64,000 nt of DNA, from contig JAMOSO010000071.1 in NCBI GenBank assembly GCA_027063065.1, forward strand, positions 1-64,000, given 5' to 3'. This document shows, one piece after another, positions 11,659 through 28,935 of this stretch; positions within the stretch are counted from its first letter, which is position 1; each line of letters begins with the position of its first letter. This stretch comes from Planctomycetota bacterium. GTDB lineage: Bacteria > Planctomycetota > JAMOSO01. Under the pieces are notes generated by a model. It had not been told where the DNA came from. It worked only from the letters and a program-made list of their open reading frames with translations, and made no database searches. The position numbers and the translations under genes were made by a program.

Positions 11659-11690
11659 ACAGCAAGTGCAATTAACTTTGCACTTGCTGT
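11659..11690. terminator. Strong hairpin between convergent feo and pel operons
   Basis: ACAGCAAGTGCAA (11659-11671) pairs exactly with TTGCACTTGCTGT (11678-11690), loop 6 bases. Neither side has a good T-run, so termination may depend on additional factors, but the position between two convergent operons fits a shared 3' end. The stop codon of pelG lies in the loop. Confidence 0.6.
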
Positions 11691-13039
11691 CCTGCAAATA
11701 CGTTATAATCTAATCGTTTAAGTTTATATTCCATATAGAACATACCAACAACAACAGGGATTAAGCAAGCTAATAAATAACCAAACCCCGTATATATAAA
11801 ACCTAAGTTTATGGTCATAGGTGTTAATATGGCATTGCAAAAAAGAAATAAGGTAGTGATGCCTGCAGCCAGTTTTTGCCAATCAAAATATAAGATAATT
11901 ATAATTTGTACCATTAAAAGAGCTTGCATAAATGCTGCAATTAAAGAGATGCGAAACATTGTAGCAAGACCTGGATTTAAGCCTGTTATTTCCATTATTT
12001 TAGGCGCTAATAAAATACAGATTAATGTAATTGCCCCTTGAAATTTTAACATTCTTAAGATAGATAGTTTTAAGGCATCATTCATTTGTTCTTTAGCTTT
12101 GGTTAATTGATTCCAAGAGAACCCGCTTTCTAATCCACGGTAATACTCAGAATATTTTTGATAAAAACTTGTTTCGATACGTATTAAAAATAACGCCATT
12201 GTTGGTACGATAGAAATATAAGCATAATACATACAAGTGTCATAATCTGTAGTTGCTAAAAACGGGCCAGCACTTACATTGTTATCAATCCAGTAATATA
12301 CTTTGTCTATCCAAATGCCAGTGTTATAGCTAAATCCACATAAAATAAGCCATGGCTTATTATACCAATATTTAAGAACTTCTTTGTCTGCCCCGTGTGT
12401 TGTTGGAAATTCTCGTGCAGTTCGTATTGCTAAGAAAAGAGCCAATACTGTCATTCCAAAGCCAAAGCCCCATAACATCCCATCTAATCCCCATACTATT
12501 CCACCCCAATATGCGGCGGCAACACTAATGGCATAGCCGATAAAAAAAGATTTAACTATGGCAATATAATCTCTAGCAGCTGACAAATAAATCATACCAA
12601 CCCATGTCAACGCAATAGTTTGAAATAATAAAGCTCCGGCCAAGCTTAGTGATATAGACAGACCAGTTATTATATAAAACAAAAAACTGCTTCCGCCACC
12701 TAGTATAAATAAAACAGCCCCTACAAAATGAAAACTAGGCAATAATGATTGGGGATCATCAACATATAATCTGTCGGCTAAATACCTAGTTGTCGCCAGT
12801 TGAAAAGGCCCTGTTAATATTAATGTACCCATATATGTATATACGACAATTACTCTAAATAGCTCATTTTCTTTTGGAGTAACAATATCTTTTAATACTA
12901 TGCTAATTAGTGCGATGCCGATAATCGACAGTAACCATGGTCCTGCTGAAAGTAGTGCACTATAAATGTAAGCTTGAGCAATACCTAGATAGGTGTTTTT
13001 TTGTAATATTTTTTGTAGATGAAATCCAACGCCAGCCAT
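11672..13039 (-). CDS. pelG: PelG, membrane component of the Pel polysaccharide synthase
   Basis: 455 residues with about 12 predicted membrane segments and no large soluble domain, matching PelG of the Pel system (MATE/polysaccharide-transporter-like fold). The N-terminus MAGVGFHLQKIL is characteristic of the family. PelG is thought to carry the growing polymer through the inner membrane, working with the PelF glycosyltransferase and PelD/PelE. Last gene of the operon; starts 2 bases after pelF. Its last seven codons form one arm of the hairpin that separates the locus from feoB. Confidence 0.93.
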   Translation of the reverse strand: MAGVGFHLQKILQKNTYLGIAQAYIYSALLSAGPWLLSIIGIALISIVLKDIVTPKENELFRVIVVYTYMGTLILTGPFQLATTRYLADRLYVDDPQSLLPSFHFVGAVLFILGGGSSFLFYIITGLSISLSLAGALLFQTIALTWVGMIYLSAARDYIAIVKSFFIGYAISVAAAYWGGIVWGLDGMLWGFGFGMTVLALFLAIRTAREFPTTHGADKEVLKYWYNKPWLILCGFSYNTGIWIDKVYYWIDNNVSAGPFLATTDYDTCMYYAYISIVPTMALFLIRIETSFYQKYSEYYRGLESGFSWNQLTKAKEQMNDALKLSILRMLKFQGAITLICILLAPKIMEITGLNPGLATMFRISLIAAFMQALLMVQIIIILYFDWQKLAAGITTLFLFCNAILTPMTINLGFIYTGFGYLLACLIPVVVGMFYMEYKLKRLDYNVFAGQQVQS

Positions 13040-13041
13040 AA

Positions 13042-14550
13042 TTAGTCTTGTAAAGTAGCCATTAAAAAATATTCATATTCTTTTTTGTAAGCATCGGTAA
13101 CTAGGTGTAGGGCATAATAAGTTTGCACACGTTTACGTCCGGCCTTACCAATCTCACGCGCATATTCTGGATTGTAATAAAGTATTTTTAATTTCTCTGC
13201 AAATGGACTAGGCGAAGCAACTGGTACGACAAATCCTGAAGGGCCAATTTCTTTATCTTCTGCACTCCTACCTTCTAATAATTCTCGGCACGCACCTACA
13301 TCTGTTGCAACTACTGGTACTCCAGCGGCATTTGCTTCTAAAATTACAAAAGGTAACCCTTCAGATATCGAGCTTAAAACTACCACATCTAAAATGGGCA
13401 AATATTTTTTAACGTCTACCATACCTGTAAATTCTATTTTATTTTTTAAATCTAATACTTCGATAAATTCTTGGCATTCTTGTACATATTCAGCCTCTTC
13501 ATCTTGAGGCCCCATAATAAATAATTTAAAATTTAAATTTTCACTGTTTAAAATGTCTAGGGTTCGCAATAGAGTTTTTATATCTTTAATTGAGGCTACT
13601 CTGCCAATAAAGCCAATATGAAAGATGTCATCGGTATGGCGATAGCGTTGTTTTAGTTTTGTAAATTCAAATACATTTACACCATTGGGAATAATTTTTA
13701 TTGAATCTGGTGCGCCATCTGCGATTTGATCAATTTTGTTTGCATCAAATAAGGAATATATTTGGTCAGCGGCATTATAGGCACTGCGACTTAAAGATAA
13801 AAAAAACTGTACCCACCAGTATTTGTAAAAATTGCGTTTACGTCCCATATCTAAGCTTCTAGCTTTACTTAAATCATCTTTAATCCATGATGAATTAAAG
13901 ATTTCAATACGCCTTTCACGTGTGTATATGCCATGTTCACTAATCAGAAAAGCGGCATCGTTTTGTTTGCTAGCAATAGCACCTAGCATTCCAGCATAGC
14001 CTGTACAAGCTGCATGATAAATACGTGCACGTGGTATTTTTATACGCAATAATTTTAAGAGAGGTAAATTTACAAATCTATATGCCCAATAAAAATCCAA
14101 AAACCCTGCCTCTTGGTTTAAATGTTTATGATAAAAATTTTTGGCAATTTCCCATGCTTGTTGGCTGTAGGCAAAACAGTCCATAAATTGAGATTCGGTT
14201 TTTGGTATGTTCACTAATGTTTGTAAAGTATGCAAATCGAGAGGCTTTGCTTCTAGTATGTCTTCTTGTAGTTGTTCTAATTTTTGCCATTGATTTTGGC
14301 TAAGTAATTTGTCGACTTTTAAATGGGGCTTCTTATCTGGATAATCGTGTATGTAAGCTTCGTGCATATTAATCACATTTGCTGGCAAATGATATTTTAG
14401 TTTTTTAAAATCATTACGCTTAGGACCTAAATATAGAATATTAAATCTAATATATGGCATTGCATCTAACAGTTGTTTAACCCAAGAGCTAACACCTCCT
14501 TGAACGTATGGGTATGTACCTTCTAAAATCAAACACACATCGGCTTTCAT
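13042..14550 (-). CDS. pelF: PelF, cytosolic GT4 glycosyltransferase of the Pel synthase
   Basis: 502 residues, as expected. The N-terminal DUF3492-type Rossmann half starts with VCLILEGTYPYVQGGVSSW; the C-terminal half holds the GT4 nucleotide-sugar site (FIGRVASIKDI, FIMGPQDEEAEY, SISEGLPFVILEANAAGVPV with the E-x7-E pair). PelF polymerises the Pel backbone, a partially deacetylated N-acetylgalactosamine-rich polymer in Pseudomonas, from UDP-sugars. It lies between the HEAT-repeat gene and pelG, 1 to 2 bases from each, in a tightly packed operon. Confidence 0.95.
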   Translation of the reverse strand: MKADVCLILEGTYPYVQGGVSSWVKQLLDAMPYIRFNILYLGPKRNDFKKLKYHLPANVINMHEAYIHDYPDKKPHLKVDKLLSQNQWQKLEQLQEDILEAKPLDLHTLQTLVNIPKTESQFMDCFAYSQQAWEIAKNFYHKHLNQEAGFLDFYWAYRFVNLPLLKLLRIKIPRARIYHAACTGYAGMLGAIASKQNDAAFLISEHGIYTRERRIEIFNSSWIKDDLSKARSLDMGRKRNFYKYWWVQFFLSLSRSAYNAADQIYSLFDANKIDQIADGAPDSIKIIPNGVNVFEFTKLKQRYRHTDDIFHIGFIGRVASIKDIKTLLRTLDILNSENLNFKLFIMGPQDEEAEYVQECQEFIEVLDLKNKIEFTGMVDVKKYLPILDVVVLSSISEGLPFVILEANAAGVPVVATDVGACRELLEGRSAEDKEIGPSGFVVPVASPSPFAEKLKILYYNPEYAREIGKAGRKRVQTYYALHLVTDAYKKEYEYFLMATLQD

Positions 14551-14551
14551 T

Positions 14552-16474
14552 TTAATGTTCTTTTTGCACTTGTATAAAATTGTTAGAAATAATTTTTGTG
14601 GCTAATTTTCTAACACTCAATTCTTCATCAAATAAACTGGCGTCAATAATACTAGCATAGATGTTACTGTTAATTAAATGCGGGGGGTGTAATAGGGTGG
14701 CAATTCTGATTTCTTTTTGGGGTAATGTTAATAGATGTTTAATAGGCAGTGGATGTTTTAGTTGCTGTGATAAATCAGCTAGTACCCATGCTTCTATTAA
14801 TGCTAAATTATAGCTGTGGGTGCTTTCGGATAAAATTTCATTTAAAGGTTTTAAATCATATTGTGCCATTGAAATTAAAGCGTTAGTAGCCCAGTTTAAA
14901 CCATTACTAGCTTGTTTGGCTAGATATATGATAGCTTGTTTTTCTGCTTTGATTGAAGAGGCATATTTTATAATCAGTTTTAATTTAGCATGGTATTCAG
15001 GAAATTGTGTAATTAACTCATATAGAGAATAGTTATGTTGATATAGTAATGATTTAGAGATAGCTTTTAATAATTCTATTTCCGAGCTTTCTTGTAATAG
15101 ATTTAGCATTTCTATACTTAATGTTTTATTTTTGATATGCGCACTGACTCTGCATGCTAAAATAGCAATATTTAAATATGGATGCTTAAGTTTACTTTTA
15201 ACACTTATTGCTATTTCTTCTGGTAATGTATGATTTTGTCCCCACATTTCTAATCGACTTAAAACACTTTCATATATGCTATTTGGGTGTTCTTCTTCTA
15301 AGATGGAGCTAAAATCATATAGGTTTTTTTTAGTCAAAATTGAAGATAAGCTTTGCACTGCTGTATACGAGGTGAGTTCGTCAGTTTTTAGAGCCTCCCT
15401 TATTTGTGGCCATGCCTTTTTAAAACCCGCTTGTCCTGCAATTTCAATAATGTGCAAAATCACATTTGTATCTTTTTCTTGTTGCCACCAGTTACAAAAA
15501 TTATCTTCTGTTTCAGGTAATGCTAAAAGTCCAGCTAATTCATAACCAATTATTCTTATATTTGCGTTTTGGCTTTGCATAGAGTTATTAGATATATGTA
15601 TTATTAATTCTTCTGGCATAGCGCCTAAACTTTGTATACAAGTTCGTTTTAACTCTGGGTGAATTTTTGTAGCCATTACATTAATAATTTTAAAAGCTAC
15701 ATTTTCTTGAGGGTAGTTAGCTAATGCTTCTACAGCAGATTTGCGTAATATATTTTGATTTGTTTCATTTTCTAAAATATTTAATAAAGTGGATATGGCA
15801 TCTTTTAGTTGATGTTTACCAAAAATTTTGCATAGGTATATTTTGACCTCTATATCCGCTTCTGTCTGTAGTGCTTGTAATAATATTTGTAACGGTTTGG
15901 ATGTAATAGGTAAGTAGCATATTTGTTCGGCAGATAATTTGCGTATAGTTACAGAATTATGTGTAAGACAATTTAATAATAAATCAGCTAAATTTTTGCG
16001 AGCACTTTTTTTAAAATTTAATTTGCTTAAAGAAAGCAAAGTAGCTTCGATAACTTTTTCAGATGTTGATTTTAGTAATCGGCGAATATAGGCAATATCA
16101 AAACCTAATCCATAATAACAAAGCAAGTTTATTACTGGTATGCATAATTCAGAATTAACATCTTCTAGTAAAGATAAAACGTATTTTTGTGCATTGTAAC
16201 CATCGATTTTACGCAAAGCGTTAAAAGCTTCGAGGCTTAAATCTTTATCTTTATTTTTAGTATATTCAATTAACAGTTCAATACATGGTTTGGCATTGGT
16301 CAAAGATAATAACGGACATATTTTTTTTGCCTTTATATAATTTAAATCTTTAGCAAATTTACAAAAATCTAAAAGTTCTTTTGGGTTTTCTTCTAGTTGT
16401 TCCCAAAGAATACGCGCTTCTAAAATAGTTGCTTTTTCAAGTTCAGTAAAAATAGTTTCATTATTTTTATTCAT
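14552..16474 (-). CDS. HEAT-repeat protein encoded inside the Pel operon
   Basis: 640 residues from the ATG whose TGA-overlap (ATGA) with pelE at 16471-16474 is typical of coupled genes; an upstream TTG at 16495 is possible but less likely. No signal peptide or membrane segment: cytosolic. The sequence is almost wholly helical and made of about 35-residue repeats such as KPCIELLIEYTKNKDKDLSL, EALNAL-like helices and SVTIRKLSAEQ, the pattern of HEAT/armadillo repeats, ending KLATKIISNNFIQVQKEH. The classical pelA-G operon has no such gene. As it lies between pelE and pelF, a scaffold linking the PelDE membrane complex to the cytosolic transferase is a plausible inference. Confidence 0.85.
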   Translation of the reverse strand: MNKNNETIFTELEKATILEARILWEQLEENPKELLDFCKFAKDLNYIKAKKICPLLSLTNAKPCIELLIEYTKNKDKDLSLEAFNALRKIDGYNAQKYVLSLLEDVNSELCIPVINLLCYYGLGFDIAYIRRLLKSTSEKVIEATLLSLSKLNFKKSARKNLADLLLNCLTHNSVTIRKLSAEQICYLPITSKPLQILLQALQTEADIEVKIYLCKIFGKHQLKDAISTLLNILENETNQNILRKSAVEALANYPQENVAFKIINVMATKIHPELKRTCIQSLGAMPEELIIHISNNSMQSQNANIRIIGYELAGLLALPETEDNFCNWWQQEKDTNVILHIIEIAGQAGFKKAWPQIREALKTDELTSYTAVQSLSSILTKKNLYDFSSILEEEHPNSIYESVLSRLEMWGQNHTLPEEIAISVKSKLKHPYLNIAILACRVSAHIKNKTLSIEMLNLLQESSEIELLKAISKSLLYQHNYSLYELITQFPEYHAKLKLIIKYASSIKAEKQAIIYLAKQASNGLNWATNALISMAQYDLKPLNEILSESTHSYNLALIEAWVLADLSQQLKHPLPIKHLLTLPQKEIRIATLLHPPHLINSNIYASIIDASLFDEELSVRKLATKIISNNFIQVQKEH

Positions 16475-17439
16475 GCGGATATATTCTCTAGCCAAAAATC
16501 AATATTATGTTTAATTCTAAGCGGAATCGTGCCAAATGTCGCAGCTTGTTGGCAACATAATGCAGTTTCTGCGAACTTGCCACAGTAATAATTTGCCTCA
16601 GCGCACCATAGTAATGCAGTTTGAGGATTATCTGATGTTTTGGCTAATGTAGTAAAACACGCCAGTGCTGATTTGTAATCATGTAAACCTAAATCAATGC
16701 GTCCAGCTAATTCATAGACTTTAGAGTCCGCTTGCTTGGGGTTGATTTTATTAATATACATTTTAGCTTTTTTTAGATAGTTTTTTTCTCTTTCACCTTC
16801 GGCAATATTATAATAACTAAAATCAAAATAAGATTGGGCAAGGTTAAAGTAATCTAATGCAGAGGCTGTCGTGCGTGTTGCTCTTAAATCACGTTTTTTT
16901 AAGCTATCCGTTAATTTGCTTTCAATTTTAGAAAGTATGCTAGCAGCAAAAAAGCGTACTTCAACTGATTCTAAACTTAATGCTTTACGCAAGGTTGCAA
17001 CAGATTCTGGGGTTTCTAACTGGGCTAAAGCTTCAATGGCCGTGCGTTTTTCTAATAATGGTTGGTCGGATTTGAGAATGCTAAATAAAGATAGTAAACG
17101 TTCTGGATCGGGAGTAAATGTTTTAGTCGTATTGTTGTATTCTAAATCTTTTGCTAAGTGTTCTTGATAGTCTTCAAAGGTTCCTGATTTATGCTGCCCA
17201 GATGTAGCTAAAGAATAATAACTGGCACACAAGCCTCCAAATACGGGAACGCCCATAGCTAATGTTATTTCAAAACTTGGCAATCGCCTTTCATCACGTC
17301 CAAAATAAACCGTTATTAACCCTAATACTGCACTCGTCAAATGCATTTTAGTAGCATCTATAAACTGGTGTTGTTGCAAAAACATTAAGCATAACCCTGT
17401 AGCAATTATATTAAAAATAATGATAGGTATAAAACGCAT
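16471..17439 (-). CDS. pelE: PelE, membrane-anchored TPR protein
   Basis: 322 residues. Two membrane segments at the N-terminus (FIPIIIFNIIATGLCLMFLQ and a second at about 55-80) are followed by a soluble domain with HEAT-like helices (TAIEALAQLETPESVATLRK) and TPR repeats near the C-terminus (AKMYINKINPKQADSKVYEL, ALLWCAEANYYCGKFAETAL). PelE of Pseudomonas has the same layout and binds PelD. The stop of pelD and the start of pelE share one base. The short HEAT-like stretch here resembles the repeats in the next gene, which may therefore have arisen from or interact with this region. Confidence 0.85.
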   Translation of the reverse strand: MRFIPIIIFNIIATGLCLMFLQQHQFIDATKMHLTSAVLGLITVYFGRDERRLPSFEITLAMGVPVFGGLCASYYSLATSGQHKSGTFEDYQEHLAKDLEYNNTTKTFTPDPERLLSLFSILKSDQPLLEKRTAIEALAQLETPESVATLRKALSLESVEVRFFAASILSKIESKLTDSLKKRDLRATRTTASALDYFNLAQSYFDFSYYNIAEGEREKNYLKKAKMYINKINPKQADSKVYELAGRIDLGLHDYKSALACFTTLAKTSDNPQTALLWCAEANYYCGKFAETALCCQQAATFGTIPLRIKHNIDFWLENISA

Positions 17440-18779
17440 TATAGCTCTTTGTAAAAAGTTTTTTGAAACTTATTAAACTCTGGTAGATTATTTACTTCTA
17501 GTAAATTTATATTATCTGCAAAGTGGATAGGTTTTTTATTGTTATTGTTTAATATCATTAATTTATAATAAGCTAAAGTATTTAATATTTTTTCTTTGAC
17601 TACATTTGCTCCAGCAATATTTGTAGAAGGTAAATATAGTAAAAATGTTTGCTGAGGATAATTATATGTTAATAAATCACTACCTCGTGCTATTTTTAAA
17701 ATAATGTGTGATATTAACATTTCTAAACGCCAATGTGCTTTGCGGTTTAATGAAAATGACTGTAACGATAAACTTAAGATGGTAGCAGGTTTGGCTTCTC
17801 TGGCTAATAATCTAATGGATTTAGATACATAATCACAAAAAAAGTTTTCACCATTTAAACCTAATTCTTGTAAATCAAAATCGTGAGAGCCTTTAGCTTG
17901 CATTATTTCAATTCTGTCTAAACTCATTCCAACCCAGTGTAAAATAGTTTCAAATACATCTACACTTAAAGACGCCATATTTTTAAAAGGTATCATACCA
18001 ACAGTAATACCCATAATTAGTTTTTCTTTGCGGTTATAAACCACGCCAGCAAGTATAGCATCATTTGGAATGTTTGGGTTATGTTTGGTGGTACAGCTTA
18101 AGATGCTTTTTGTTTGCATACTTTTACGTAGTAAGGCTGGTATGTTTGTTTCTTCAATTAATTTATTGTTTTGTAGCCAATCTCCGTTGTGGTGTTCGTA
18201 TATACTGATGTCTTCGGCGTGTAAGATTTCTGATAGAGAATCCTTTAGACAGGTAATAAGTTCTTCTTTATTTCTAACCGAATTAAGCCTTTTTATCGGT
18301 CCGTGCATTCTAAATAAATTTCCTTCACGGCCGGCAATGTTTGATTCTAAAAAGCGATATTTTTCTTCCAGTTGCAAATAATTTTTACGATTTATTTCTA
18401 GCTCTTCTTTTGTTTTTTGTAAATTTGTTTTAAAAAAAGTTGTCTTACAATCTCGGCTATTAAGAGCCTCGCTACAATAATGGCCTAACATAATCATAGA
18501 TACTGGTATAATCATTTTATTAGTATGTAGGTATAGCATATCACTAACGTTGTTGTCTATTTGATAATACCCCCAAAGAGTTAGTCCGGCACAGATTAAA
18601 CTTATTAATTGTCCGTAAGGCTCACCATATCTAAAAGAAATCAATAAGATAATAAGCCAATAAGGCGACAGTGGCATTTGAGTAAAAAACATATCTTCAG
18701 GCATAGTAAAGAATGCAACTAGCTGTAAGCTAGCTAACATAAATAATGCTTCTGAATACACTTGAAGTTTTTTAGGCAT
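17439..18779 (-). CDS. pelD: PelD, cyclic-di-GMP receptor of the Pel synthase
   Basis: 446 residues: four predicted N-terminal membrane helices (about 9-107), a coiled-coil linker (115-150), a GAF domain (about 160-290) and a degenerate GGDEF domain at the C-terminus. The inhibitory-site motif RxxD is retained as RGSD at 365-368, while the GGDEF signature itself is replaced (YNYPQQTFLLYLP). In Pseudomonas, c-di-GMP binding to the equivalent RxxD of PelD switches on polymer synthesis. So Pel production here is very probably under post-translational c-di-GMP control. Starts 3 bases after pelC. Confidence 0.92.
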   Translation of the reverse strand: MPKKLQVYSEALFMLASLQLVAFFTMPEDMFFTQMPLSPYWLIILLISFRYGEPYGQLISLICAGLTLWGYYQIDNNVSDMLYLHTNKMIIPVSMIMLGHYCSEALNSRDCKTTFFKTNLQKTKEELEINRKNYLQLEEKYRFLESNIAGREGNLFRMHGPIKRLNSVRNKEELITCLKDSLSEILHAEDISIYEHHNGDWLQNNKLIEETNIPALLRKSMQTKSILSCTTKHNPNIPNDAILAGVVYNRKEKLIMGITVGMIPFKNMASLSVDVFETILHWVGMSLDRIEIMQAKGSHDFDLQELGLNGENFFCDYVSKSIRLLAREAKPATILSLSLQSFSLNRKAHWRLEMLISHIILKIARGSDLLTYNYPQQTFLLYLPSTNIAGANVVKEKILNTLAYYKLMILNNNNKKPIHFADNINLLEVNNLPEFNKFQKTFYKEL

Positions 18780-18782
18780 AGA

Positions 18783-19352
18783 TTATTTTTTATTTTTAAA
18801 ATTTCTTTTTTTTATTTGGTTATTTTTATTTGTTTTAGGTATTAAATTTTGAACAATCTTAGCGCATTGTTGCTGAGTTAAATGCCCAAGGCTATTAGAA
18901 CCAAAAATATTGTTATTAGATTTAGCACAATTTGCAGACCATATAATCTTATTTGTTGCCACATTTAACATATATACAGTCATACCTATAGCTGGCTTTT
19001 GGCTGACTCCTGTTTTATAGCGATATTCTGTAACAGTACCAGTAATAATAGTTTGTGATTTGATAATATTTGCCATTTTTTTGGCAGTTAAAATTTTTCC
19101 TGCAAATGGAGCTAACAGTAATCTTACTTTTTCTGGACTGAGGATATTTAAATTGGTATTAATCATTAGTTCGCTAGCAAGTTGATCAGACACGATTAAG
19201 CCGGCGTTGGGATTATTAGAATAATTTTCAAAAGGTACGACGGCAATTTGACCCAAATTGTCAAAAGTATTTTGCGTTAATTGTGAATATTTATTAGATG
19301 TACAACCAGTAAATAAACTAATTGCCAATATGTAGGTTAGTAATTTAAACAT
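18783..19352 (-). CDS. pelC: PelC, outer-membrane lipoprotein
   Basis: 189 residues. A lipoprotein signal peptide ends in the lipobox LFTGC (Cys 17). The body has the CsgG/PelC-like pattern IAVVPFENYSNNPNAGLIVSDQLASELM, then ITGTVTEYRYKTGV. PelC forms a ring at the periplasmic face of the outer membrane and funnels Pel to the PelB barrel. The C-terminus has an unusual Lys/Asn-rich extension (NKNNQIKKRNFKNKK). Gap of 11 bases to the barrel gene upstream and 3 bases to pelD downstream. Confidence 0.9.
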   Translation of the reverse strand: MFKLLTYILAISLFTGCTSNKYSQLTQNTFDNLGQIAVVPFENYSNNPNAGLIVSDQLASELMINTNLNILSPEKVRLLLAPFAGKILTAKKMANIIKSQTIITGTVTEYRYKTGVSQKPAIGMTVYMLNVATNKIIWSANCAKSNNNIFGSNSLGHLTQQQCAKIVQNLIPKTNKNNQIKKRNFKNKK

Positions 19353-19363
19353 TTTAACTCCAT

Positions 19364-20512
19364 TTAAAAAATAAAATTTATTCCAAAATCAGTATAGCGG
19401 GTTTTGCCTGTTGCAATGCCGTTAGATGACTGGGAATCTATACCAAAGCCAAGCCATAGTCTAATATTATCTGTTGGAATAACATATAGATTTGCTTGTA
19501 ATTCATATAATTTATTCCAGCTGATTTGTCGTGGCGAATCTTGTCCTGTTGTAGCATCTAGGTGTACCCCATAGTTTTCCGTTAAAAAAACATTTGCTGT
19601 CAACCCAACTTTTAATTTTAGTAAATGTTGTTCTTGTGGGATACGTGTTTCTTGATATGCCGAGTTAAATCTTGCGCCATCTAAGCTGGTGTATATTTGC
19701 AAAAAACTATATTGGTAATCTTTTTCAAGATAGTTTCCTGTGCCTAAAAAACCAGTTTTCAATTGGTGAGAATAATTATTCCATAAATTATATCCAATTT
19801 TTCCATGCCAGTTGTAGTTACGTCCTTCGTGATGTTCTGGAGAAAACGTACTGTCTGTGGTGTAAATTTCGGTAATGCTTGCGCCACAAGATAAAATTAA
19901 TTTATTGTTTATGTTTTTGTAGAGCTCTGTTAATAGTTTAAATCCGCGATTGTCTTCTTGTATGGCTATTGTATTGTCAATTTGAGGAGTCCATATTTGA
20001 GCCTCGATTGTAAAATTTAGATTATTATGTTTGATAAAACCTAAACGAAGTCCAGGGCTATTTATGTTAGAAGTATCGCTGAGTGATGTTTCTATATATG
20101 TGCTATAAAGTTTAGTTTCTTTTTGTAAGCGTATATTTATTTCTTTATTTTGTTCTTTAATTATATTTTCATCCGCTTCTAGCTGATAAGTATTTAATTT
20201 GATTATGGTAGCCAGTTTAAAGTATGCGGAAATGGGTACAATTCCAGTAATTTTTTGTAATGTGATGGTTTCTGCTTGGTTATAAGAATGTCTTGAGGTG
20301 TAAAGCAATTCTGGGCGGTGGTTGCGTATAAGTTCTGTTTGTCTTAATGTTATATATTCTAATTCTGTATCGTAGACTTGCTTGTAGTTTTTTGCAACTT
20401 GTGTAGGTTTTATATCTTGAGGAACTTTTATTAACAATTCATCATTTGCTAATAATATATTTGAGCCTATATTACAGATAAGCCATACAATAAAAATAGT
20501 TTTCAAATTCAT
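19364..20512 (-). CDS. pelB: PelB C-terminal part as a separate outer-membrane beta-barrel protein
   Basis: 382 residues with a cleavable signal peptide (LKTIFIVWLICNIGSNILLA). The rest alternates short hydrophobic strands with polar turns and ends in an aromatic residue (TDFGINFIF), the mark of an outer-membrane barrel. In Pseudomonas the export porin is the C-terminal domain of one 1193-residue PelB. Here it is a separate gene overlapping the TPR-part gene by 4 bases (ATGA). The presence of its own signal peptide shows the split is functional, not a sequencing frameshift. Confidence 0.85.
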   Translation of the reverse strand: MNLKTIFIVWLICNIGSNILLANDELLIKVPQDIKPTQVAKNYKQVYDTELEYITLRQTELIRNHRPELLYTSRHSYNQAETITLQKITGIVPISAYFKLATIIKLNTYQLEADENIIKEQNKEINIRLQKETKLYSTYIETSLSDTSNINSPGLRLGFIKHNNLNFTIEAQIWTPQIDNTIAIQEDNRGFKLLTELYKNINNKLILSCGASITEIYTTDSTFSPEHHEGRNYNWHGKIGYNLWNNYSHQLKTGFLGTGNYLEKDYQYSFLQIYTSLDGARFNSAYQETRIPQEQHLLKLKVGLTANVFLTENYGVHLDATTGQDSPRQISWNKLYELQANLYVIPTDNIRLWLGFGIDSQSSNGIATGKTRYTDFGINFIF

Positions 20513-22464
20513 TGTTTAGCCTTGTTAATATATGCAATGGCATTGGAATATGCCGTATAAGTATCTAACCAAGAAGTATTTTTGTTGTGCCATTTTCCTG
20601 CATCGCTATTGTAGGCTTTGGTTAATAGCTGGTTGCGTTTATTCATTTGTGCAAATTTTTGTGGCGGATTTTTGATAATAACCTTTGCCTTGATAGGTCT
20701 AGGCACAATACCGCCTATTTTAGCTACTAGCCTGTAATACTCGTTTTGTATGTTTTGTTTGCCCGGTTGTAAGTCAAGTAATTTACGATAGTTTAAAATA
20801 GCCATTGGAATATCATTAGTTTTTTCATAAAAATAGGCTTTGAGAGCCAATATATTTATATTAGATTTAGAATTATCAAATTTTCGGATAATATGTTTAG
20901 CTAATTTTAGATCGTTTTTATCTAAAGACATTTGTAACATTTGTTTGTCTATGTTGCTAATTTTAGTTTGGTATGTTTGGTATTCTGTTTTAGCTAATCG
21001 GTAGTTGTTGTCATCAATAAATAAGCTAATTAAATATGTTTTTTCGGCGGCAGACAAACCAAAAGGCTTTAATTTTGTTAATGCTTTTATTGCCTTGTTT
21101 CTATTTACTTGTCTTTGTATGTTAGTATCGTGAGCATAGTTGCGCCAATAGCGCTCTAAATAAATATTTGCTAAATATCTGGTTGCTTGTTTGGAGTTAC
21201 GTTTACTAGCTAAGCGCAATAATTTATTTTGTTTTTCGGTGTCAAGTAAACGTGCGTAAAAATTAGATATGTCTATTAAATTTTCGACGCTTAAATTATC
21301 CCAGCCAATGGTTTTTTTTATATTTTGCAAATCATCCATTGCCAGTTGTCGTTTTTTTTGTCTTAGGTGCAAGCCTATTATTTTTACATATGCTGTTTTT
21401 GTTTGCGGAAACCCTTTGTCAATAATTTGTTTAAGTATAAGTTTGGCACGTGGATATTTTTTGTCTTTTATTAACAAATCAGCAATATATAAAAACATTG
21501 CACCATCTTGTTTTAATTCGGCTAATTTAGTTAAGTAAAATATATATTGTTTGTTATTGTTTATTTTTTTAGAAAACACGGTTCCCATCCAACAGATTTT
21601 TTCTTTATAACCAAATTGTTTGGCAGTTTGGTTAATAGTATTTAAAGCTTTGGCGGTTTGATTTGACCACGAATATAAATAAGCCAAGTCTTCCCAGTCG
21701 TGTATTGTAGCTTGTTGATGTTGGCATAATTTTTGTGAACTTATTATGGCGTTTGGAATATCTCTAGCGCGTATATAAAAGGTGGTTAATAATTTATAGT
21801 CATCGCAGGCACATTTATTGTGCATTAGTAATTCTTTTGCGTATGGTAATGCTTGTTCTATTTTACCTTGCCAAAGTAAAGTCTCTATTAAGCTGGCAAG
21901 GTCATTGTGCTTATGTTGAGTTTTTACCATACCCTGTAAAGCTTCTATGATGCCAGTTACATTCATTGACCATTCTTGATATGTTTTAATTTGTTCCCAA
22001 ATGGCATAGTCGCTTTTGTCGTGTTTTAGTTGCTCTTTTAAAATTTTAATCGCCTCATTTAAGTCGCCAATTTCAACTAATAATTTTAAAATGGTTACAT
22101 AATTTTGTTGGCGGTTTTCATTTAAAATAGCTAAAGCTTTTTGATAATAAAATAGTTTTTGATAGAAATTTACTAAAAAATCTTTTGCCCAAATATCAGA
22201 TGGTTTTTGTTGTCTATATTTTGTAATTAAATTTATAATGGTTGCGTTTTGCTTATCCTTTAGAAGTAAAGGTACAATCATTTCTAGTGCGCGTTTATCT
22301 CCGGGGTTTGCATGCAATACGTCTTGCAAAGATATAATCGCGATATCCGAAGAACTTCTTTGAGCCAACATAATGGCTTGTTCACGTTGCGGAGGTATGC
22401 ATAAAAATGCTAGAGTAATGACACCTAAAGCAAAAAACAAAATTTGATGGATTTTAAAACCCAA
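20509..22464 (-). CDS. pelB: PelB N-terminal part as a separate membrane-anchored TPR protein
   Basis: 651 residues. A single N-terminal membrane anchor (IHQILFFALGVITLAFLC, about residues 5-22) is followed by many TPR-type helical pairs through the periplasmic region (for example DIAIISLQDVLHANPGDKRA, AILNYRKLLDLQPGKQNIQN). Together with the barrel gene downstream it equals one full-length PelB. The TPR part of PelB binds PelA and guides polymer to the outer membrane. Overlaps pelA by 11 bases and the barrel gene by 4, so it is translated in a coupled series. Confidence 0.87.
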   Translation of the reverse strand: MGFKIHQILFFALGVITLAFLCIPPQREQAIMLAQRSSSDIAIISLQDVLHANPGDKRALEMIVPLLLKDKQNATIINLITKYRQQKPSDIWAKDFLVNFYQKLFYYQKALAILNENRQQNYVTILKLLVEIGDLNEAIKILKEQLKHDKSDYAIWEQIKTYQEWSMNVTGIIEALQGMVKTQHKHNDLASLIETLLWQGKIEQALPYAKELLMHNKCACDDYKLLTTFYIRARDIPNAIISSQKLCQHQQATIHDWEDLAYLYSWSNQTAKALNTINQTAKQFGYKEKICWMGTVFSKKINNNKQYIFYLTKLAELKQDGAMFLYIADLLIKDKKYPRAKLILKQIIDKGFPQTKTAYVKIIGLHLRQKKRQLAMDDLQNIKKTIGWDNLSVENLIDISNFYARLLDTEKQNKLLRLASKRNSKQATRYLANIYLERYWRNYAHDTNIQRQVNRNKAIKALTKLKPFGLSAAEKTYLISLFIDDNNYRLAKTEYQTYQTKISNIDKQMLQMSLDKNDLKLAKHIIRKFDNSKSNINILALKAYFYEKTNDIPMAILNYRKLLDLQPGKQNIQNEYYRLVAKIGGIVPRPIKAKVIIKNPPQKFAQMNKRNQLLTKAYNSDAGKWHNKNTSWLDTYTAYSNAIAYINKAKQ

Positions 22465-24508
22465 TTTTCAACTCCACTATTTTGACTTTGTCCGCAGGTA
22501 TTTTAAAACTATAAATACCGTTTTTAAAATTTGTTTTGATTTGTTTATTATTTAAATAAACAGTAGGGGTATGTATGCTTCTAAATTCAAATAAGCCACT
22601 TTTGCAAAACAATTTGATTTTGGCTAAAAAATTATGTTTGGTCAATTGTGGGGCTAATAGATTGTGAGTAGATTTTTTTAAACTGAAAATGTTTTTTGGA
22701 TTTGCACTTAGGTAAATTTTAGTATTTTTTGCATTTATACTTACATATAAAGAATTGCAAAAATAGTCCCATCCCAAAACACCTTTTGATTTTTGCATAT
22801 CAACGGCACGAGTTTCGTTATCAAATCTGATGGTTTTTAAATAACCATTAGTTTTAAATTGCCAAGCGGAATTATCATCTGAAAGTCTATAAATTTTTAG
22901 TGATGTAAAATCTAAAACCATTCGGCAATAATCAGCTACATCAATCCAATTGAGTTCTTGTTTGCTTAGCCAAGCATATATTTTTTTTAATGAGTTTAAC
23001 CCCGCCTGATTTTCACAAATATAAAAATGATAGTATAAATTTAGTGCAATCAGTCTAGGTGAGGCTGTGTTTTTGAAAGTATCTAAAATATGTACAAAGC
23101 CGCCTTTATCTTGATGCCAGCCGTTAGTGTATAAATATTCATTGCCTGCTGGTGCGTATATTTGTAACTCTTTGCCTTTTGCTACTGTAAGTGGTGCAAT
23201 AGTAGCACGACTGTTATATATAGCATCATATCTTGAGTTACCGCCATTTAGATTTAAATAACCGTTTTTGCGTAGCAATGCTATTTGTGCTTCGGTTGGG
23301 TCACAGTCACCAGTCCATAAAAACACCTGAGCTTTTTTGTTTTTTGGAACAGTTAATTTTTCAACTAATTTAATAGCGCCAACAGTTTCAAGGTAATCAC
23401 TATAAATATAGTGGGGATATTTTATGCCGACTTTATGTTTTGCCCAATTCATAGGGTGGCAGTATCCATGTGCTGTAGGTTGTACATGGGGAAGTTGCAT
23501 AATATTTTTAAAGACATCTAGTTGATTGTGTACTAAGCCGTTTTTATCTATCCGACAAGCAACTAATCCGATAGTAATAGGATATGTATTAGTTTTTAAT
23601 ATTTCATCATAGCAGACTTCGGGAGAAATTCTTTGACGCCCTGGCAAGTTAATGCTTTTGTTTGCCATACCATCGCCATCGATATGCGAAAATGCAACTC
23701 GACAACCTGTAATGGTAGTAACATCAGCTTTAGGTAAATTTTGTGTGTTGAATGCGGCTTCTAAAAATATAAAAGGGTTTAAATCCCAACTGATTTGCCA
23801 TTGTGGCGCTTCAAAAACTCTGTAAGCAAAATTTGGCTCACTGATAAATCCTCCACGCTTGCCAACACCAATAGCTATAGCTTGTGAATCGGCAATATCT
23901 TTTAGATATGTAATCCTCCAAGCTTGCATACCAAATCCCGAAGGGCGAATGTCGTGATAAATCAAATCTTGTGGTGGTAGTTTGGTTTCGTAATCAAATA
24001 AGTTTTTTTGCTCTTTGAGGTTGTGGTATTGCACACGAATAGGATCTATTAAATCTCCGTATTTGCCATAAGATAAACCCATAGCATTTAAAACTTGCGT
24101 GTATAAATGTTCATCGACACTTTTGCCTTGCATGTTGGTTTCGGCTCCTAAGCTACCAATTAATACAACGCGTTGATTGTTGTTTAGTTGTTTTAATAAC
24201 CATTTCAGATACATGGCAGGATGTTGCATTTTTTGGTCATTAAACCAAATTAAAATCCCACGATATTTGGATGTGTCAATCAGCTTGTCTTTGGTTATAT
24301 CTAAATAATCCACCATTAAACCAAGGCGGTTAAGGGGCATTTCTAACCGTCCGTGGATATTGCTTTTTATTACAGAAGTCTCATTAGAGTCAAATAATGC
24401 TAAAATCCGTCTCGGTTCTATTTTTGAAGTGCTTGCAAGTATGTTTGATTGATTGTAGCATAAAAAAATGCTTAAAAATACAATTATGATGCCCCACCTT
24501 TTATGCAT
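22454..24508 (-). CDS. pelA: PelA, Pel polysaccharide deacetylase lacking the N-terminal hydrolase domain
   Basis: 684 residues against about 950 in Pseudomonas. After a signal peptide (about 1-26) the protein begins with the central reductase-like fold (ILALFDSNE, GILIWFNDQ, VVLIGSLGAE), with no GH114-type domain. The carbohydrate-esterase domain is intact: HIDGDG at 275-280 and HGYCHP at 347-352 supply the aspartate and histidines of the metal site. A C-terminal beta-rich domain follows (about 560-684). It removes acetyl groups from the polymer in the periplasm. First gene of the minus-strand operon, 28 bases from the divergent hydrolase gene. Confidence 0.9.
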   Translation of the reverse strand: MHKRWGIIIVFLSIFLCYNQSNILASTSKIEPRRILALFDSNETSVIKSNIHGRLEMPLNRLGLMVDYLDITKDKLIDTSKYRGILIWFNDQKMQHPAMYLKWLLKQLNNNQRVVLIGSLGAETNMQGKSVDEHLYTQVLNAMGLSYGKYGDLIDPIRVQYHNLKEQKNLFDYETKLPPQDLIYHDIRPSGFGMQAWRITYLKDIADSQAIAIGVGKRGGFISEPNFAYRVFEAPQWQISWDLNPFIFLEAAFNTQNLPKADVTTITGCRVAFSHIDGDGMANKSINLPGRQRISPEVCYDEILKTNTYPITIGLVACRIDKNGLVHNQLDVFKNIMQLPHVQPTAHGYCHPMNWAKHKVGIKYPHYIYSDYLETVGAIKLVEKLTVPKNKKAQVFLWTGDCDPTEAQIALLRKNGYLNLNGGNSRYDAIYNSRATIAPLTVAKGKELQIYAPAGNEYLYTNGWHQDKGGFVHILDTFKNTASPRLIALNLYYHFYICENQAGLNSLKKIYAWLSKQELNWIDVADYCRMVLDFTSLKIYRLSDDNSAWQFKTNGYLKTIRFDNETRAVDMQKSKGVLGWDYFCNSLYVSINAKNTKIYLSANPKNIFSLKKSTHNLLAPQLTKHNFLAKIKLFCKSGLFEFRSIHTPTVYLNNKQIKTNFKNGIYSFKIPADKVKIVELKIGF

Positions 24509-24536
24509 TTAAGATACCTTTTTTAGGAAATAAACT

Positions 24537-25469
24537 ATGTTTAATTATACTGTTTTGCGCTTTATTCTCAAGTTTAAGAACTTTTGTTTAATTAATTTTA
24601 TATTGTTTTTTATATGTATTTCTCAATGTATTGCCAGGGTCGATATTCAGTCATATTCGTATATATTGCAGGCGGAACAAGAGGTCAGTTCTAAGCAAGA
24701 CGCTATTAAAAAATTGCGTGCTTTAGATAGTGATTTAATAATTTTAGATGCCAAATTTAGTAATACACAGAAATGGCTACCAAGTGATTTAGATGCAATA
24801 CGCAATGGCAAAGTAGCAAAAAAAGTAATTTGTTATCTTTCAATAGGTGAGGCAGAAAATTATCGTGATTATTGGCAAACTTCTTGGGATAAAAATCCTC
24901 CATCGTGGTTGCTTGCCGAAAATCCAAATTGGGCAGGTAATTTTAAAGTGCAATATTGGAACGCAAATTGGCAAAAAATAATTTTACAAGATGTTGATAG
25001 TATAATGCTTCAAGGCTTTGATGGTCTATTTTTAGATATAGTTGATGGTTTTGAGTTTTTTGAAGAGCAGGGCGATAAATATATAGATTATAAGATTAAT
25101 AGTTTAACAAAACATAGTTATCGTCAAGATATGGTAAACTGGATAGGTTTAATAGCCAAGCGAGCTAAAGTAATAAAACATGATGCTTATATTGTACCGC
25201 AAAATGGTATACAGTTATTGCAAGAACCAAATTATACACAATACATTACTGCTCAGGCGTTAGAAGATTTATATACACTAAATAATAAAAAACAAAGCAT
25301 AAGTAGAATAGAATATATTTTAAACTTTGCTAAGGATTGTTTAGAGATTCCAATTTTAACTACTGAGTATCCTAGCAAAGAGAATATTAAAAAATATGCG
25401 CAACAAAAATCCGAATATTATGCAACAATATTATTATTGACCAATAGGGATTTAACTAATTATCAATAG
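24537..25469 (+). CDS. GH114/TM1410-family glycoside hydrolase, candidate detached PelA hydrolase
   Basis: 310 residues with a hydrophobic N-terminal export signal (about 13-33). The (beta/alpha)8 pattern of the GH114 / TM1410 family is clear: LDSDLIILDAKF, KKVICYLSIGEAENYRDYW, PSWLLAENPNWAGNFKVQYW, LQGFDGLFLDIVDGFEFFE, AYIVPQNG. The Glu in SIGEAE and the Asp in FLDIVD occupy expected active-site strand ends. Members cleave galactosamine-type linkages, and the Pseudomonas PelA N-terminal domain belongs here. Diverges from pelA across 28 bases, with AGGA 8 bases before ATG. Its 3' end overlaps trmB by 14 bases on the other strand. Confidence 0.85.
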   Translation: MFNYTVLRFILKFKNFCLINFILFFICISQCIARVDIQSYSYILQAEQEVSSKQDAIKKLRALDSDLIILDAKFSNTQKWLPSDLDAIRNGKVAKKVICYLSIGEAENYRDYWQTSWDKNPPSWLLAENPNWAGNFKVQYWNANWQKIILQDVDSIMLQGFDGLFLDIVDGFEFFEEQGDKYIDYKINSLTKHSYRQDMVNWIGLIAKRAKVIKHDAYIVPQNGIQLLQEPNYTQYITAQALEDLYTLNNKKQSISRIEYILNFAKDCLEIPILTTEYPSKENIKKYAQQKSEYYATILLLTNRDLTNYQ

Positions 25470-26106
25470 TATCTAAAGAAAAACAGACATAAAAAATTTG
25501 TCTGCCCATAGCTATATGGCGTTTTTCGTAGACGGTTTCAATTAAAACCTCTTCGTCTTGACTTGGATTGTTTTTTAAATCTCGTATAAGGCTATGTATG
25601 CGAATGCCTTTGGTTGTGTTTAATGTTTCTATTGTATATTCAAATAATTCAGGATTGTCGGTTTTAAAATGTAACAGAGAAGTATCTTTAAATATGCAAC
25701 GGTAACATTCTAAAAACCTTGGAGAAGTCAAACGCCTGCTGGCCTTTGCTGGGAACGGATCAGAAAACGGTATCCATGCGCAATCTAATTCATTAGGCAT
25801 AAAATAGTTGTCTAAAAATTCGCAACGTATTCTTAAAAAAGCAACATTTGTTAAGTTTTCTTCTATGGCGGTTAAAGCGCCTCGCCAAATCCTTGCCCCT
25901 TTGATGTCGATACCTATAAAGTTTCTATTTGGATATTTTTTAGCTAGTGCCAAAGTGTAATCACCATATCCACAGCCTATTTCAATTGTAATGGGATTGT
26001 TGTTTTTAAAGTAACTTTGCCAGTTGCCTTTTATTTTGTCATCTGTTTGAAAGACATTGGGCATTTGGTCAATTTCATTAAATTTTTTTTGTTTATTTCT
26101 AGCCAT
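25456..26106 (-). CDS. trmB: tRNA (guanine-N7-)-methyltransferase
   Basis: 216 residues. SAM-binding motif I is IEIGCGYGDYTLALA, followed by FIGIDIKGARIWRG. It methylates G46 of tRNAs. The usual FPDPWPKKRH motif is replaced by FSDPFPAKASRRLTSPRFLE, a variant closer in wording to the Bacteroidota type (FPDP, RLT, FL) than to the proteobacterial one. Ends with YEKRHIAMGRQIFYVCF. Converges with the hydrolase gene. The region upstream holds a candidate small RNA whose terminator would prevent read-through into trmB. Confidence 0.92.
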   Translation of the reverse strand: MARNKQKKFNEIDQMPNVFQTDDKIKGNWQSYFKNNNPITIEIGCGYGDYTLALAKKYPNRNFIGIDIKGARIWRGALTAIEENLTNVAFLRIRCEFLDNYFMPNELDCAWIPFSDPFPAKASRRLTSPRFLECYRCIFKDTSLLHFKTDNPELFEYTIETLNTTKGIRIHSLIRDLKNNPSQDEEVLIETVYEKRHIAMGRQIFYVCFSLDTIDN

Positions 26107-27297: not shown

Positions 27298-28935
27298 CTA
27301 TAAAAGATTTTTTAATAATATTTCAAATTCTGTTGTCCAGTTTTTGTTATTTATGGTTTTTAAATGATTGTTTATTTTGTCTTTTAAATAGCTAGTGCCA
27401 TTTTTAATAAACAAATCGGCTTGTGATAAATATTGTTGTTTGGTAGTAGTTATGCAGTCTGTTAAGTTAAAGCTATGCAAAAAGGCACTTGAGGTACGTT
27501 TGACATGCGTGTCGCCCTGTAATGTTAGCACTGGCACACCCATAGCTAAAATTTCACAAGTGGTTGTAGTTCCATTGTATGGGTAAGTATCTAAACAAAA
27601 CTCGCAGGCTATAATGTTTTGACGGTGGCGCATTATATCTTTTTCGCCAGGCAATATAGTAATGCGGTTTTTATTAATATTTACGCTTAGGTCTTTTAAT
27701 AATCTTTGTTTTGTATCTTCTAACTTAAAGTTTCTGGAACTTATGATTAAATGAACTTTGGGATTGTTTTGTAAAATTTGATTCCAAAGAGCAATGAGTT
27801 TAGGGTTTAACTTAGCGATATTATTAAAAGAGCCAATAATATAACAATCTTCAGGTATATTTAATTGTTGTTTTAAATTAATTGTGTTTGGTGGCTTTTT
27901 AAAAGGAATAAATGGTAAAAAAATATGTTTTGGCATTCTGATTAAAATTTCACTATATAAATTTTGGGCATCTGGCAAATCTACTAATGTGTCACTTAAT
28001 CTAAAATCAATTTCTTTAAGTCCAGTAGTATTTGGGTATCCCCAAGCAGTGATTATTTTAGGTGCTGGTTTTAATTTGCAAATTTCTAACCCATTATTTT
28101 GTGTATGTCCCGCACATTCAATTAATATATTTAGCTGATGATTGTAAATTGTTAAGGCAGCGTCTTTGGGTGACAGATTACTTATGTCGATAACTTTAAA
28201 ATGTTTTTGAAACCATATTGATAATTCATCATTGTATGTCTTTAAAGAAAATAAAGTTATGTCAAAATCTTTACTATGATTACTGATTATTTCTTTTAAA
28301 AATAATCCAACAGAATGCTGTCTAAAATCAGGCGATAGATAGCCTATATGGATGTTTGTGTTATCAGATTTGTGTTGGTTAAAATTTTTAAAATAGTTTG
28401 AAGTTTGATTTAGATCACCCCATAATTTATGTATGTTTGCTATGGTATTGGCTGGCAAATCTAAATAGTGTAAGTGTAACAACGTAAGATCTAAATCGTG
28501 ATATTCCGCTTGAGAAAATGTAGTATTGCATAAGCCTTGAAAAACTATATCACTTAATTGCCATTTGTAAATTAAGGGTGCTATAGCTATCCAGTGTAGG
28601 TATGTTACAGCAGGCGTATGATGATTAGTTAGTAAGCGGTGGATATATTTTAAGGCAGATGGTAAATCTCCTAAATTAGCTTTTAATTTTATTAATTCCA
28701 ATAAGCTTATTTCAATATTGTGCGAAGTAGCTTTATTATTATGTACTATAAAGTATTCTAAAGATTTACAGGCCTCATTTAACAAACCTAAATCCAGTTG
28801 CATAATACCACAATAAAATGGTATTTCTGCGATAGGTGGTAAGCTTTGAAGCTTTTGCAACGCCATTTTTGTATGGCCATTTTGAAACAACTTTAATCCT
28901 TCTCGATAAATTGTTATTAGCTCTTTTTTTTGCAT
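27298..28935 (-). CDS. TPR plus OGT-like (GT41) glycosyltransferase
   Basis: 545 residues. TPR-like helices fill about the first 190 residues. The rest matches the SPINDLY/O-GlcNAc-transferase catalytic family: IGYLSPDFRQHSVGLFL, LNILIECAGHTQNNGLEICK, APKIITAWGYPNTTGLKEIDFRL, IIGSFNNIAKLNPKLIALW and the UDP-binding LDTYPYNGTTTTCEILAMGVPVLTL. Bacterial members glycosylate proteins, often flagellins or adhesins. The neighbouring flagellar genes and the TPR-sulfotransferase (32.3-34.1 kb) suggest a surface-protein modification role; the target is not visible. Confidence 0.88.
   Translation of the reverse strand: MQKKELITIYREGLKLFQNGHTKMALQKLQSLPPIAEIPFYCGIMQLDLGLLNEACKSLEYFIVHNNKATSHNIEISLLELIKLKANLGDLPSALKYIHRLLTNHHTPAVTYLHWIAIAPLIYKWQLSDIVFQGLCNTTFSQAEYHDLDLTLLHLHYLDLPANTIANIHKLWGDLNQTSNYFKNFNQHKSDNTNIHIGYLSPDFRQHSVGLFLKEIISNHSKDFDITLFSLKTYNDELSIWFQKHFKVIDISNLSPKDAALTIYNHQLNILIECAGHTQNNGLEICKLKPAPKIITAWGYPNTTGLKEIDFRLSDTLVDLPDAQNLYSEILIRMPKHIFLPFIPFKKPPNTINLKQQLNIPEDCYIIGSFNNIAKLNPKLIALWNQILQNNPKVHLIISSRNFKLEDTKQRLLKDLSVNINKNRITILPGEKDIMRHRQNIIACEFCLDTYPYNGTTTTCEILAMGVPVLTLQGDTHVKRTSSAFLHSFNLTDCITTTKQQYLSQADLFIKNGTSYLKDKINNHLKTINNKNWTTEFEILLKNLL

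Follow-up and report, generated by a model that had tools for sequence, protein, structure and literature searches.

Pel is among the most widespread polymers of bacterial biofilms. The pelABCDEFG locus of Pseudomonas aeruginosa provides seven functions in the order A-B-C-D-E-F-G, and PelE is generally regarded as a TPR protein. In P. aeruginosa, the HIDGDG and HxxxH motifs of PelA supply the catalytic base and metal ligands (PMC12022489), and PelD, PelE, PelF and PelG interact directly and act as a single complex in the membrane, for which PelE is predicted to be the interaction hub (PMC13254593). Other arrangements have been described. The Bacillus cereus operon pelDEA_DAFG encodes a PelA with the deacetylase part only, and in this species and other bacilli the hydrolase gene, pelA_H, is separate and divergent from the operon (PMC7112168). 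In aquatic thermophiles, fission of pelB together with locus gain has been reported (PMC7112194, Fig. 5 iii).

Here, we analyzed a 64,000-nucleotide stretch of DNA, referred to as the window, from a deep-branching Planctomycetota genome (2.13 Mb, 71 contigs, 90% complete) whose nearest relatives among the compared genomes belong to the same phylum at best. The window contains a complete Gram-negative-type Pel locus, to which all seven Pel functions could be assigned. Nine near-gapless genes run along the minus strand from 24508 to 11672 in the order pelA(deacetylase)–pelB-TPR–pelB-barrel–pelC–D–E–HEAT–F–G, and a glycoside hydrolase gene diverges from pelA. The features, with the evidence for each, are as follows.

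24537–25469, plus strand: stand-alone glycoside hydrolase, GH191/TM1410-like, an analogue of PelA_H (phmmer, catalytic residue alignment, Pfam)
22454–24508, minus strand: pelA, deacetylase part (PelA_DA) without the hydrolase domain (phmmer to PelA 9cgy, motifs)
20509–22464, minus strand: pelB-TPR (TPR_14, gene order, homologues)
19364–20512, minus strand: pelB barrel, a separate gene for a predicted outer-membrane beta-barrel (AlphaFold2, Foldseek)
18783–19352, minus strand: pelC, outer-membrane lipoprotein (profile matches to PelC structures)
17439–18779, minus strand: pelD, putative membrane c-di-GMP receptor with a degenerate GGDEF domain (seven-member profile, position)
16471–17439, minus strand: pelE, with an N-terminal hydrophobic part, one HEAT stretch and TPR-like helices (HEAT_2, TPR of relatives)
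14552–16474, minus strand: HEAT-repeat gene, 640 aa (HEAT_2, AlphaFold2, overlap)
13042–14550, minus strand: pelF, GT4 glycosyltransferase, the Pel polymerase (NF038011)
11672–13039, minus strand: pelG, membrane exporter (PF16933)

All ten genes were found where an earlier sequence-only reading of this DNA had placed them. Its claim that the seven Pel functions are all present was upheld by matches to Pel families, profiles and structures, and its suggestion that the machine might belong to another phylum is supported, the phylum being Planctomycetota. The start codons of pelA and the hydrolase gene lie 28 bp apart on opposite strands (24508–24537), each behind an AGG-type ribosome site, so at least one promoter must be inside the opposite gene. 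The far end of the hydrolase gene overlaps a convergent TrmB-like gene (25456–26106, minus strand) by 14 bp (25456–25469). Further along, 27298–28935 on the minus strand encodes a 545-aa protein with helical repeats, presumably O-GlcNAc-transferase-like from its motifs.

Compared to P. aeruginosa, the window locus has a PelA without the hydrolase domain, a PelB encoded by two genes and a HEAT gene between pelE and pelF; it thus has neither the fused PelA nor the single PelB of the canonical type. It shares the deacetylase-only PelA and the separate divergent hydrolase with B. cereus but differs in having PelB, PelC and the HEAT gene and in having PelA_DA at the head of the operon. Unlike the Gram-positive type, defined by the lack of PelB and PelC, it contains barrel, TPR and PelC genes. 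A PelB in pieces is common to the window and the aquatic thermophile loci, a likeness that rests on the description of fission rather than on gene layout; that paper does not refer to a HEAT gene (PMC7112194). The closest counterpart is a Planctomycetota-lineage metagenome-assembled genome, SZUA-421 (L065/L060), which is nearest to the window on a PelF+PelG tree. A check of synteny in relatives found the same order there, with pelA_DA, a split PelB with an ATGA overlap, C, D, E, HEAT, F and G. SZUA-421 differs in having no hydrolase in view and an extra ORF of ~120 aa between pelC and pelD (L060, 9248–9616), as also seen in L050 (7976–8350) and not in the window.

The identities of PelF (NF038011, 479 bits with a cut-off of 100) and PelG (PF16933, 416 bits with a Pfam cut-off of 29) are unambiguous. 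The PelA-like protein matches residues 251–818 of the PelA structure 9cgy (phmmer, 2.4e-46), and because the match begins at residue 251, the N-terminal hydrolase domain is missing; its HIDGDG and HxxxH motifs align with catalytic D528/D530 and H600/H604 of P. aeruginosa PelA. The PelC profile matches PelC of 9h80 (2.8e-21) and 5t11 (3.4e-18), and a lipobox-like MFKLLTYILAISLFTGC was recognized by eye. The PelD protein of the window matched no Pfam family by itself, and it was assigned by its position and a profile of seven sequences, which matched the PelD GAF region (1e-4) and GGDEF domains (8e-8). Its GGDEF domain is degenerate, with an I-site-like RGSD (residues 365–368) in the I-site column. 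Eight GGDEF proteins encoded in the genome are candidate suppliers of c-di-GMP. PelE has a HEAT_2 match (1e-8) and membrane helices that were read by eye; TPR was found in five of seven relatives and HEAT in all seven, and the PelE profile matches both TPR and HEAT-type designed proteins. Even in Gammaproteobacteria, PelE of L106 and L113 (Photobacterium and Moritella) has a weak HEAT_2 stretch.

The sequence-only reading had described PelB as two genes joined by an ATGA overlap, with a second signal peptide, and this was confirmed: the genes overlap by exactly ATGA (20509–20512), and a stretch resembling a signal peptide was recognized by eye at the start of the barrel gene. The pelB-TPR protein, which likely starts at a TTG codon, combines an N-terminal hydrophobic helix (by eye) with TPR repeats (TPR_14, 4e-10), and its homologues in L060/L065 are 1109 aa long. 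AlphaFold2 predicts 16 strands for the barrel with moderate confidence (mean pLDDT 62.8). Among the PDB structures listed by Foldseek, PelB in the PelBC complex (9h80) gave the top TM-score for this model (0.60/0.59); BcsC and PgaA came next and ordinary porins were at ~0.40, suggesting that the gene encodes the predicted PelB outer-membrane barrel. The ATGA overlap recurs in L060/L065, and separate barrel genes are present in L061, L070/L050, L074/L051 and L182; the barrel profile is narrow and uninformative for most other loci. Since fission of pelB has already been reported, a change of this type is not new.

The hydrolase was correctly read as a separate, divergent gene, but its assignment to the GH114 type did not hold. 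The best phmmer match is TM1410 (2aam/9euz), the founding structure of GH191 (5e-29), compared to 5e-5 for the GH114 enzyme Ega3 and an E value of 0.3 for PelA GH166; the 62-bit match to the Pfam GH114 model is to a model that covers both GH114 and GH191. The putative nucleophile D167 and acid/base E243 align with D156/E225 of TmGH191 (PMC12054363; numbering matched by counting), so that both putative catalytic residues are common to the window enzyme and the family. Its TIGR01370 score of 161 is under the cut-off of 181. The protein has a signal-peptide-like N-terminus. By sequence, it is closest to GH191/TM1410, ahead of GH114 and GH166. Because its nearest relatives are GH191 enzymes and not GH166, we rejected the reading of this gene as an unfused PelA domain; a replacement, or else an older separate enzyme, would fit better. 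Among the 57 loci with both hydrolase and deacetylase in view, the two are fused in 36 and separate in 21, and in seven of the latter they are on opposite strands.

The third feature, a HEAT-repeat protein between pelE and pelF, is as the sequence-only reading described it, apart from a correction of the start: ATG 16474, which gives an ATGA overlap with pelE, is most likely the start codon rather than TTG 16495. The protein matches HEAT_2 (2e-18), as do all 12 relatives scanned, and is predicted by AlphaFold2 to be helical throughout, with ~41 helices (pLDDT 88.9). No signal peptide, membrane span or strongly hydrophobic segment was seen in the HEAT proteins. Their length is ~640–690 aa in most loci, and most of the genes have short overlaps, of a few bases, with pelE, pelF or both. 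PelE and HEAT form a single ORF in two genomes belonging to the same family (L055, 10474–13722, and L205). The overlaps and the fusions support a functional link between the HEAT protein and the Pel system. Foldseek searches with the HEAT model returned only general HEAT/ARM superhelices (SF3b1, CAND1 and importins; TM ~0.3–0.4), which give no clue to function, and the window protein used as a query against relatives found, beyond the locus, only generic HEAT proteins. We also considered the HEAT protein as a replacement for the repeat region of PelE, a candidate that was rejected; PelE keeps its HEAT/TPR region in HEAT-positive and HEAT-negative loci.

A survey of pel loci by profile showed that the HEAT gene is not restricted to the window. 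Loci were annotated by stop-to-stop profile searches; longest-ORF calls are misleading at high GC. PelF and PelG were usable in 111 non-redundant loci, of which 31 have a HEAT gene between pelE and pelF, 68 do not and 12 are uncalled. The distance between pelE and pelF is 1880–2983 bp with the gene (median 1967, n = 29) and has a median of 33 bp without it (n = 73), so the absence of HEAT is independent of profile sensitivity. The single large gap in the latter group is in L097 (labelled Bacteroidetes), one of the uncalled loci, where inspection by eye revealed a diverged, repeat-like helical ORF of 482 aa missed by the profiles. HEAT-positive loci come mostly from metagenome assemblies and belong to Planctomycetota, Omnitrophota and Elusimicrobiota, plus records labelled Deltaproteobacteria and Bacteroidetes. 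The gene is present in all ten loci with pelF found in the small phylum of genome G394, in all three Omnitrophota loci with PelG above cut-off, in about half of Elusimicrobiota loci and in a minority of those of Planctomycetota; it was absent from the Gammaproteobacteria, Rhodoferax-type, Verrucomicrobia and Myxococcales loci examined. In one rearranged locus, L053 (= L072), a 321-aa HEAT gene (16334–17299) instead lies behind pelD, and one Planctomycetota genome (G027) has two complete-looking pel loci, on C54 (L047) and C78 (L046).

The reading that best accounts for the genes, their coupling and distribution, the PelE–HEAT fusions and the clustering of HEAT loci on the tree is that the window probably holds a working Gram-negative-type Pel synthase and exporter of a distinct lineage, with the HEAT protein proposed as a scaffold between PelE and PelF. 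Judging from the homologous systems in P. aeruginosa and B. cereus (PMC12022489, PMC13254593, PMC7112168), PelD would bind c-di-GMP, PelF would polymerize UDP-GalNAc in the cytosol and PelG would pass the chain across the inner membrane. The product, presumably Pel, an alpha-1,4-GalNAc polymer, would be partially deacetylated by PelA_DA on the PelB-TPR scaffold and leave through the separate PelB barrel and PelC, and the secreted GH191-like enzyme may trim or release it. The HEAT protein would extend the HEAT/TPR hub of PelE in the cytosol, docking PelF on the PelD-PelE-PelG membrane complex. Its position, its coupling to the neighboring genes and the fusions to PelE make a cytosolic scaffold joining PelE to the PelF synthase its most likely role; against this, many Pel systems have no HEAT gene. 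Alternatively, the protein could be a signaling or partner-sensing adaptor that recruits another factor to PelF, such as a nucleotide-sugar enzyme or a regulator. Binding of peptides and partners is common among HEAT superhelices, and the RxxD motif of the c-di-GMP site is missing from PelD of L070, L074, L068, L071, L081 and L180, so that regulation may differ in the Omnitrophota and the L070/L074 pair. However, RxxD is kept in 21 of 29 HEAT loci, and the PelE fusions, like the close linkage with both flanking genes, speak for a place in the core complex; we consider the adaptor rather unlikely.

Whether the HEAT genes share one origin bears on a stronger form of the scaffold reading, in which HEAT would be an eighth, so far undescribed core subunit of single origin. 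It would belong to a separate lineage of Pel synthases, spanning Planctomycetota, Omnitrophota, Elusimicrobiota and others, and would be required there for assembling PelE with PelF on the membrane. We hold this form tentatively, as falling just short of an even chance. On the PelF+PelG tree, the HEAT loci require three changes, compared to a mean of 26.4 for shuffled labels (0 of 500 shuffles were as low), supporting the earlier suggestion of a distinct lineage. A single HEAT clade was not rejected (p-AU 0.346). Because the tree was built quickly under LG+G4 and some of its deep branches are weak, it permits a single origin but does not prove one. HEAT profiles built from one clade give the HEAT proteins of other clades scores no higher than those of background HEAT proteins. 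The case for orthology is therefore made by position and the tree; sequence alone does not prove it across phyla. The profile result, together with the abundance of HEAT proteins in these genomes, speaks for independent recruitment of unrelated HEAT proteins to the same spot in several lineages, each with a local regulatory job. We consider such repeated recruitment improbable given the shared position, similar length and same short overlaps, as well as the strong clustering on the tree; moreover, HEAT repeats diverge fast, and loss of similarity is expected. Doubt could also be cast on the hydrolase, which might be a housekeeping galactosaminidase that neighbors the locus by chance: none is in view beside the otherwise similar L060/L065 and L061, and TmGH191 of Thermotoga showed no activity on fungal GAG or GAG oligomers (PMC12054363). 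Env-GH191, in contrast, cleaves Pel (PMC12054363), pel loci are repeatedly flanked by hydrolase genes and the window enzyme is the sole PF03537 match in its genome, which makes a chance neighbor very unlikely.

The locus could finally be an ordinary one with trivial rearrangements and nothing beyond published variants. The sequence-only reading had presented its three changes as co-occurring and unusual, against a description of Pel limited to fused PelA and single PelB. The genes and overlaps are as it described, but that description is out of date and the changes are not all unusual: earlier papers describe both a separate divergent hydrolase (PMC7112168) and the fission of pelB (PMC7112194), and separate hydrolases and split PelB recur elsewhere in our survey. 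The exact combination of all three was found in the window only. The changes are not supported as one evolutionary event, because HEAT is the most widespread, the PelB split occurs in few loci and the triple is confined to the window. Conservation of the HEAT gene over several phyla in part refutes the view that nothing is new, which we judge unlikely; a literature text search, with most subscription papers outside its reach, did not turn up any paper that mentions a HEAT gene at a pel locus. Within the literature searched, the new part is therefore the HEAT gene as a mark of a Pel lineage across several phyla.

If a distinct branch of Pel systems does have an additional, conserved subunit in the cytosol, it would reveal how the synthase is put together. 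The arrangement pelE–HEAT–pelF, with its gap of ~2 kb, would then provide a sequence marker for this lineage in uncultured phyla, and the proposed interaction can be tested directly through the two fusions of PelE with HEAT.
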